Assembly: GCA_016939365.1 (NCBI GenBank)
Contig: JAFGHD010000059.1
Span: 1 to 32,757, forward strand
DNA: 32,757 nt
Reading direction: 5' to 3'
Source: Bacteroidales bacterium
Lineage (GTDB): Bacteria > Bacteroidota > Bacteroidia > Bacteroidales > JAFGHD01
Each line of letters starts with the position of its first letter. Positions within the stretch are counted from its first letter, which is position 1. The notes under the pieces are model-generated. The model worked only from the letters and a program-made list of their open reading frames with translations. It was not told the DNA's origin and did no database searches. Position numbers and translations under genes: made by a program. Below are positions 15,984 through 18,888 of the stretch, one piece after another.

Positions 15984-15994
15984 AAAAAAGAAAA

Positions 15995-16409
15995 GGGCCA
16001 TTCTGTAAGCGGGATTCTGTACCCGGTCACAGACCGGGCTTCTATCATTTATCTGGGCCTGACGTCACCGCCAGGCTCTAGCAGCCAACCCCTCCCGGGA
16101 AGTCCTGAGCGAGCAACCCATTAGGTCTTCAGTGACACGGTGTGTACATCAGACCGCCGGGATATATTTGGCCTTGCAACCCGTAAGGTTTACCCCCGGG
16201 AGATGTCACCACCCCCCGGTGTGAGCTCTTACCTCACATTTTCACCCTTGCCGGCCCCGACCTTATTAAGGGCAGGAACTTGGGCGGTTTTTTTCTGTGG
16301 CACTCTCTGTCCCCACTGCGGGGGCCTTCCTGTTGGGAAGTACGGTGCTCTGTGTTGTCCCGACTTTCCTCCCTTTCAAAAAACAAAAGAGCGATAGAAC
16401 GAATGGCCC
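15995..16409 (-). ncRNA. rnpB: RNase P RNA, bacterial class A-like
   Basis: The ends form the P1 helix: GGGCCATTC at the 5' end (16409-16401) pairs with GAATGGCCC at the 3' end (16003-15995), nine perfect pairs. The 5' P4 strand GGAGGAAAGTCGGGAC lies at 16372-16357, and the 3' partner ACAGAATCCCGCTTA lies near the 3' end. The conserved GGTAAGAGCTCAC core and GGTAAACC, the L15-type loop that recognises tRNA CCA ends, are also present. It is the catalytic RNA that trims tRNA 5' leaders. Its 3' end runs into T-rich sequence (TTTTCTTTTTTTC) that overlaps the end of lon and should terminate it. Open reading frames across this span are not genes. Confidence 0.97.
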
Positions 16410-16419
16410 GTTCCCACTG

Positions 16420-18170: not shown

Positions 18171-18303
18171 TATTAACAATTCCGCATCCTCCTGTGCATT
18201 TCCTTTAACCACTGACTGTTTACGCACATTAAAGCATTTGGTTGTAAGCCACTTGAATGCGAAGGAAACTTATTAACAATTGTTAATAACCCCTGTTAAC
18301 AAT
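18171..18303. promoter_or_regulatory. TTAACAAT operator-like array upstream of the structured RNA
   Basis: TTAACAAT occurs at 18173-18180, 18273-18280 and 18296-18303 and inverted at 18279-18286. The middle pair forms a perfect 20-bp palindrome at 18270-18289 (TTATTAACAATTGTTAATAA). The 11-mer TATTAACAATT is repeated exactly at 18171-18181 and 18271-18281, 100 bases apart. TGTTAACA at 18294-18301 is itself palindromic. All sites lie 27 to 160 bases upstream of the -35 element, where activators or repressors often bind. Confidence 0.5.
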
Positions 18304-18329: not shown

Positions 18330-18361
18330 TTGACATCGGTGGTCTCATTTGCCTATATTTG
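18330..18361 (+). promoter_or_regulatory. Strong promoter of the structured RNA
   Basis: TTGACA at 18330-18335 and TATATTTG at 18354-18361 are 18 bases apart. The second box is a perfect Bacteroidota TAnnTTTG element and the first a perfect -35. Transcription should start near 18366-18368, exactly where base-paired sequence begins. Confidence 0.8.
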
Positions 18362-18365
18362 TTTC

Positions 18366-18888
18366 ACCAAGCAAGGGATAAAAGGTTGGCTTGGATCGCC
18401 AGGGGTCAAGAAAGGAAAGCTGGCAACGGTAATCCCGGAATGACCCGATCCTGCAACCTGGAGGGCATTAGGTTGTCGCCACTGCAGGATAGCTTTGAAA
18501 TCAGGATGTTCCGGAAAGGGTTGCCCGCAAGGGCAATCGTAGAAGGATTCAGACAGACCGGATAACGGCTCTTCGGAACCGGGACTCTGGAATGTCAGCC
18601 TGAGAAGCCCGGAAACCGGGACACCCGCTTCGGCAGGTCACACCGGTTTCAAACCTGGAAAGGTCTCTTCGGAAACCTGACCGGGGAGCGGGAAAAGCAA
18701 CGGTTCACGGAAGAAAGATTCGCAAGAACCTCTCAGAAATGAACCGGGCTGACCAGGCAGTTAGGCCGAAAGGCTTAACCACCAAAGCAGCAGCCATAAT
18801 AACCGTACCTTGGCACCTGACGGCCGCTACGGCGACCGAAAGGTGAGTGGGGATTCTTCCGCCAGGAAAGGATCCCCACTGTGTTTTT
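18366..18888 (+). ncRNA. Large structured non-coding RNA, family not recognised
   Basis: About 520 nt with a promoter at the front and a terminator at the end hold no credible protein gene but many stable stems. Examples: CCAAGC (18367-18372) with GCTTGG (18389-18394); ATCCTGC (18448-18454) with GCAGGAT (18484-18490), enclosing AACCT/AGGTT; TTGCCC-GCAA-GGGCAA (18521-18536); CCCGG/CCGGG (18608-18620); CCGG (18643-18646) with CCGG (18681-18684), enclosing a UUCG hairpin; CGGTTC (18701-18706) with GAACCG (18741-18746); an eight-pair GAAA-capped hairpin at 18760-18779; and CACCT/AGGTG (18814-18845). Three hairpins end in UUCG. It lacks the conserved cores of RNase P, tmRNA, SRP RNA, group II introns and common riboswitches. 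The gene lies between two convergent genes, so it acts in trans rather than as a leader. Function unknown. Confidence 0.8.
18846..18887 (+). terminator. Rho-independent terminator of the structured RNA
   Basis: AGTGGGGAT (18846-18854) pairs perfectly with ATCCCCACT (18872-18880), and GTGTTTTT follows. The next gene on the other strand ends at 18957, so this hairpin closes the RNA transcript. Confidence 0.85.

Follow-up and report, generated by a model that had tools for sequence, protein, structure and literature searches.

OLE, ROOL and GOLLD are presented in one study as large, elaborate bacterial RNAs that were found by comparative genomics, form homo-oligomers, have poorly understood functions and are represented by models within Rfam (PMC12286853). 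Two 6S families, Bacteroidales-1 (RF01693, 179 positions) and 6S-Flavo (RF01685, 108 positions), come from the same bacterial class as the RNA described here, and both are shorter. RNase P RNA and tmRNA resemble it in size, and combine paired ends with a variable interior. CcnA of Caulobacter crescentus is a non-coding RNA tied to replication and cell-cycle control, reported to lie at the origin and presumably to be activated by CtrA (PMC8959179).

In a window of 32,757 nt (the whole stretch of DNA analysed, contig JAFGHD010000059.1 of a Bacteroidales bacterium), a first-pass annotation had proposed an unassigned, free-standing, large structured RNA gene between converging genes. Judged from its sequence, the segment at 18366-18888 (+ strand, about 520 nt from the predicted start to the end of the terminator T run) does resemble a stand-alone RNA gene that has a promoter and a terminator of its own, and the proposal is supported by homologues, promoter, terminator and the absence of any Rfam match. 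The neighbours, an amidohydrolase gene upstream (+) and an HD-domain gene downstream (-), both converge on the RNA as described. The putative promoter (18330-18361, +) is of the -33/-7 type of Bacteroidota and consists of TTGACA, an 18-nt spacer and TATATTTG; the -33 element TTGACA (18330-18335) and the -7 element TATATT(TG) (18354-18361) give 11 of 12 consensus matches. A promoter scan of the window returned one site where shuffles would give 0.7, which makes the window promoter weak evidence when taken alone. Its support comes from retention across homologues: the strict -7 box TANNTTTG lies immediately 5' of the RNA in 37 of 47 non-redundant homologues and a looser -7 pattern in 42, counts influenced by a genome-contig search pattern that already included TTTG. 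The strict box was found in 13 of the 20 hand-placed homologues, which were derived from the 3'-end model.

At the other end, the nine-pair terminator stem that had been noted is present (AGTGGGGAT/ATCCCCACT at 18846-18854 and 18872-18880), with a T run at 18884-18888. This element (P4, 18846-18888, +) has the form of an intrinsic terminator stem with an internal loop followed by the T run, and the stem covaries in the two subfamily alignments, A2 and A3, described below. A simple terminator scan of the window listed no sites, a miss that we would put down to the internal loop and to the GTG ahead of the T run. The predicted fold of 18366-18888 has an energy of -220.1 kcal/mol (z -6.17), equalled by none of 100 shuffles. 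Since the opposite strand also folds strongly (z -6.47), the strand was not chosen by fold energy; it is set by the promoters, terminators and conserved ends. Four small ORFs within the region had no Pfam match at E<=1, and the interiors differ between families, which argues against a conserved protein frame.

Rfam gave no match over 18366-18888 at gathering thresholds and nothing credible at E<=10. None of 37 homologue or candidate loci (19 + 18) matched a family, although the loci include repeats (L104 carries the same RNA as L111) and one locus, L138, was later judged to be coding. The annotation's view that the RNA belongs to no known family thus held for the window RNA and for these loci, and we call it new in the sense that it appears to have no detectable relation to any curated RNA family. 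RNase P RNA, which had been located elsewhere in the window, was placed by Rfam at 15990-16410, separate from the RNA gene, and the sole RF00010 signal inside the RNA scored 7 bits (E 9.3). There was no tmRNA (RF00023) match in the window; the genome encodes its tmRNA elsewhere (G000:C58), and tmRNA was above cut-off in 19 of 22 carriers of the new RNA, with only weak matches, of a kind that also occurs in archaeal controls, in the other three. RNase P RNA and tmRNA are both encoded separately from the new RNA in its own genome. No GOLLD, ROOL or OLE model matched when the whole Rfam library was searched, and this RNA was not named in the titles and opening abstract lines of the open-licence papers searched.

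When blastn (E<=0.001) was run with the RNA on its own genome and 40 relatives, 41 genomes in all, the query itself was the sole match, and even a genome of the same genus (G001) had no match. Against 395 genomes of the class at E<=10 there were short matches only, mostly chance by eye. Several of these coincided on the 5' end just past the -7 box and provided the route to the homologues: loci read at these matches agreed at both the 5' and the 3' end and had a terminator, around an unrelated middle. A scan of genome contigs with the promoter and 5' core gave 43 stretches, 36 of which also had a good 3' core. Forty-one of the 43 were titled as Bacteroidota groups, bar L073, which has a Chlorobiota title and an RNA nearly the same as that of L080. 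The seven stretches with no good 3' core were L065, L075, L093, L097, L101, L069 and L079; the contig of L093 ends soon after the 5' core, L101 lacks the RNA architecture, and L079 (Mycoplasma) and L069 (Lachnospiraceae) lack it as well and are unrelated. A search with the 5' core allowing two mismatches was too noisy to use, with counts by eye like those of a reversed-pattern control.

Thirty-nine cores, the window included, pass a 3'-end weight matrix; these comprise the 36 stretches together with loci from the class-genome blastn, six of which repeat stretches. At E<1e-8, a model of the 3' half built from 37 sequences (R1) matched 24 of the 395 class genomes; ten of these match by construction, having contributed to the model, and 14 are new. 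At E<=0.01 it matched 70 of the 395, 46 of them at E>1e-8. We inspected 26 of these 46 weaker genomes by eye and judged 10 to be real (G120, G154, G185, G212, G270, G318, G337, G340, G382 and G400), 5 unclear (L146, L151, L152, L158 and L160) and 11 unrelated or coding (L144, L149, L150, L153-L157, L159, L177, L178 and L179). Within families, R1 matched 7 of 9 sampled f53 members and 6 of 7 f67 members. Across a 395-genome sample of the phylum, R1 (E<=1e-5) matched 5, one of them the window's own and all in the window's class. Twenty homologues were added by hand from fetched regions to reach 59, or 47 after removal of near-identical ends; the hand anchors, like the upstream motif considered below, were picked after looking at the data. 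Loci L143, L145, L165 and L172 look real and stand outside the 59, as do L139 and L141. It is near certain that these loci represent a new RNA family in the window's class, which we take to be Bacteroidia.

Neighbouring genes tended to be kept inside lineages (PIN-PhoH, amidohydrolase, DadA-like oxidoreductase and DnaG, names that are our reading of the sequences except for the scanned neighbours in the window), and no neighbour common to all lineages was seen among the loci compared. This pattern suggests that the gene is inherited vertically and that its RNA acts in trans. Two copies of the RNA occur in some genomes (L089, G086:C75, G164 and G263); the pair in L089 is a tandem spaced by about 690 nt, and the second copy in G086 (L162) has an altered core.

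Like OLE, ROOL and GOLLD, the new RNA is large and came from comparative genomics, and it is free-standing with many tetraloop-capped stems in its predicted fold. It might therefore be an RNA-only scaffold of the same type that assembles with its own copies, as homo-oligomers are reported for those three RNAs (PMC12286853). We regard this as quite unlikely. Unlike them, the new RNA has lineage-conserved chromosomal neighbours and no Rfam match, and combines paired ends and a conserved internal loop with an interior of highly variable length; short members also occur (L064, 233 nt). Phage and plasmid records had no blastn match, although blastn misses diverged members. Viral contigs gave six exact 18-mer matches, and the three that were scanned (L105, L106 and L110) had neither the promoter nor the 3' core. 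As a separate observation, viral contigs L105 and L106 have in common the 18-mer CAAGCAAGGGATAAAAGG in near-identical upstream surroundings (GTTATCCCCTG before the 18-mer), with other features of the RNA absent.

The conserved part of the RNA is its two ends, a feature that the first-pass annotation had not described. Members have a common 5' end (CCAAG-YRAGRGAUAAAA), a common 3' end (AAUAACnGUAR-CUUGG), a terminator and usually a UNCG-type hairpin. In the window (all + strand), the 5' strand of helix P1 (CCAAG, 18367-18371) pairs with its 3' strand (CUUGG, 18809-18813), and the 5' strand of P2 (18384-18388) with CAGCC at 18791-18795, as judged by pairing in homologues. Between the two helices lies an internal loop formed by YRAGRGAUAAAA (18372-18383) and AYAAUAACnGUAR (18796-18808), which in the end alignments is the most conserved sequence seen in the family. 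P3 (18814-18845) is a hairpin with a cUACGg tetraloop (18827-18832); by a loose regular expression, its loop is of UNCG type in 41 of 47 homologues, GNRA in 5 and other in 1. The distance from the 5' to the 3' strand of P1 varies from 151 to 584 nt across the family.

We assessed P1 by joining 5' and 3' ends from different members 500 times. Standard pairs made up 98.7% of P1 in the 47 non-redundant homologues; the re-paired controls averaged 91.5% and never exceeded 94.5%. In the 28 members that were not hand-placed the value was 97.9%, against a mean of 90.8% and a maximum of 95.7% (0/500). Compensatory changes in P1 included G-C to A-T, A-T to G-C and C-G to T-A, and variants such as UCAGG/CCUGA in L131 and CCAAA/UUUGG in L162. 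P2, tested in 39 members with the standard core, had 70% standard pairs against a mean of 62% and a maximum of 66.7% in 500 re-pairings, so its covariation is weaker than that of P1, yet above control. The diverged f83 group has the same layout with another core, in most members CAAGAACGAYGUAYUUUGACA facing ACAAAACUUGRUGC; two f83 loci, L139 and L141, have an A-A mismatch in P1 by eye and were excluded from the 59. We do not claim a sarcin-ricin-like core, as L031, L095 and L020 break that motif with no matching change.

The interior (18389-18790 in the window) is a lineage-variable domain with many helices, as judged from pair counts in five window-type homologues. Resemblance by blastn is found mainly inside subfamilies, and length and sequence differ between families. 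In A3 (8 sequences, f53), pairing was 94.3% against 83.2% when shuffled, and 30 of 61 pairs had both sides changed against 16.7 in shuffles (0/500 as good); in A2 (5 window-type sequences), the values were 88.1% against 79.4%, and 56 of 136 pairs over the whole RNA against 26.6 (0/500). Two caveats apply: the structures were taken from the very alignments on which they were tested, an advantage to them in the slide control, and related sequences can surpass such shuffles. Changes between homologues thus keep the stems in P1, P2, A2 and A3, the opposite of the uncompensated substitutions that would have spoken against the structure. Interior fold energies were moderately unusual (mean z -1.91, 20 of 47 below -2), compared with a mean of -0.75 for flanks (6 of 29).

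Paired ends are common to the new RNA and, by prediction, Bacteroidales-1, and an internal loop near the ends could act as a promoter-like bubble. The RNA might be the 6S-like regulator of RNA polymerase of these lineages, unrelated in sequence to known 6S. Neither RF01685 nor RF01693 matched in the RNA's own genome (G000). 6S-Flavo was found in 2 of 61 genomes, both f97 and below the family cut-off, and in none of 33 RNA-positive genomes; Bacteroidales-1 was found in 6 of 30 genomes and in none of 20 RNA-positive ones. The Bacteroidales-1 positives are all six f41/f42 genomes tested, which belong to the window's order and have no R1 match. Among genomes tested for both, 6S (G072, G113, G179, G210, G147 and G356) and the new RNA never occurred together. 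This complementary pattern is suggestive, but both 6S families are also missing from the RNA-negative genome G059, so their absence says little; G103 and G073 lack both as well, with weak R1 matches at E ~0.007. Moreover, the window RNA is multibranched by prediction and almost three times the length of Bacteroidales-1, and no sequence common to it and eight 6S loci was seen by eye. We consider a 6S-like identity unlikely.

Besides its ends, the gene is accompanied by upstream sites that go beyond the first-pass annotation. In an unbiased count, the top enriched upstream 9-mer was TGTTAATAA, present in 23 of 46 loci and in 0.4% of 853 background segments. The broader motif TGTKNATAA resembles the DnaA box, TTATNCACA. 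It occurs at 73 upstream sites, with at least one in 38 of 46 loci (23 of 27 matrix-placed and 15 of 19 hand-placed) and at least two in 23 of 46, and is absent from 8. Its density is 8.7/kb upstream and 0.20/kb farther off in the same loci. In most loci the sites lie between the promoter and about -200, and a related pattern counted in bins peaked at 18.3/kb at -100 to -51. The window has the putative DnaA-binding sites TTATTAACA (18270-18278) and TGTTAATAA (18281-18289), with a near match, TGTTAACAA, at 18294-18302. Perfect TGTGGATAA/TTATCCACA sites, the DnaA-box consensus, numbered nine within 200 nt upstream over all loci together. There were no TGTKNATAA sites upstream of 19 tmRNA loci (three of them mis-anchored) or within 300 nt upstream of the eight 6S loci. 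Two of 10 dnaA loci had sites, so autoregulation via this motif was not seen.

We also searched 16 genomes for site pairs, defined as two sites within 25 nt. There were 0-5 direct pairs per genome in 14 of the 16, 9 in G340 and 10 in G154; a reversed-pattern control gave 0-3 in most, so some of the pairs elsewhere are chance. One pair, in either direct or inverted orientation, sits at the RNA in 10 of the 16 genomes (G000, G167, G345, G365, G086, G318, G340, G270, G400 and G154). An exact TGTTRATAA-N11-TGTTRATAA pair was observed about 85-115 nt past a match to fmt in three families (L276 at G000:C48, L303 at G086:C80 and L290 at G049:C17), and may be a further binding place of the same factor; as a candidate origin it was rejected, since fmt in G270 lies at 3.59 Mb, away from the skew minimum. 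In G107 the pair TGTTGATAACCCATGTTTTTGTTAATAA occurs five times, mostly at contig ends (L284, L296 and L304), and so probably lies in a repeated element; Rfam gave no match on these three loci.

Such clustering at one upstream place, with few pairs elsewhere in most genomes, would fit a functional element of its own, a datA-like titration or reset site with the RNA as by-product or modulator. This seems very improbable to us, given that the ends and stems of the RNA are under clear selection, which would not be expected of a by-product, and that 8 of 46 loci have no sites. The sites beside the promoter could instead mark a chromosomal origin, as with CcnA (PMC8959179), and the only direct pair found in G270 is the one at the RNA. 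Bacteroidetes oriC is reported to lie commonly far from dnaA, in a paper on Prevotella (PMC4755523). GC skew was informative in family f83, in sampled windows of G270, which is near-complete, and G318; the window's own genome is split into 197 contigs. In G270 (40 windows), skew is lowest at ~0.91 Mb and peaks somewhere from 2.46 to 3.1 Mb, which puts the RNA, at 2.69 Mb, on the side of the terminus. Contig C6 of G318 showed no sustained skew change at the RNA, with one +0.008 window ~25 kb off, and the skew of G365 was too noisy to place an origin. An origin at the RNA, disfavoured in f83, is extremely unlikely. Because the skew origin is away from the RNA, the upstream sites look regulatory or titrating and not replicative, at least in f83. 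Unlike CcnA, the new RNA does not sit at the skew-defined origin of the genome tested; the likeness would be a link to replication, and no homology is claimed.

On balance, we favour as the probable overall explanation a new family of structured, trans-acting RNA whose transcription is tied to a factor at the upstream sites, plausibly DnaA. RNA polymerase would start a few bases before CCAAG at the RNA's own -33/-7 promoter and stop at the intrinsic terminator. P1 would join the 5' and 3' ends and hold the conserved internal loop (strands of ~12 and 13 nt), which separates it from P2 and is the likely docking site for a protein or for another RNA. The interior would be a scaffold rebuilt by each lineage, comparable to those of RNase P and telomerase RNAs, and the UNCG hairpin and terminator would form a 3' tail. 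We infer that the RNA is expressed. Since different lineages place it beside different genes, it most likely works as a trans-acting RNP; an RNP with its conserved loop near the paired ends is the likely form. Some 40-200 bases upstream, the TGTKNATAA sites would most likely be bound by a factor to which transcription is tied; DnaA heads the candidates, and its plausible control of transcription would couple the RNA to replication. A bolder version, which we hold tentatively and think less probable, is an ancient, undescribed RNP RNA of Bacteroidia, whose transcription DnaA would control from a dedicated array of boxes remote from the origin, and which would be coupled to replication and perhaps replace 6S RNA where that is lacking.

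Few large structured classes of bacterial RNA are known, and this one spans many families of its class and escapes both blastn and Rfam. The defined gene, end motifs and search model can be used by others at once. To our knowledge, replication control has been little studied in this phylum, and if the upstream sites bind DnaA, they would offer a direct way to test a link between the RNA and replication.
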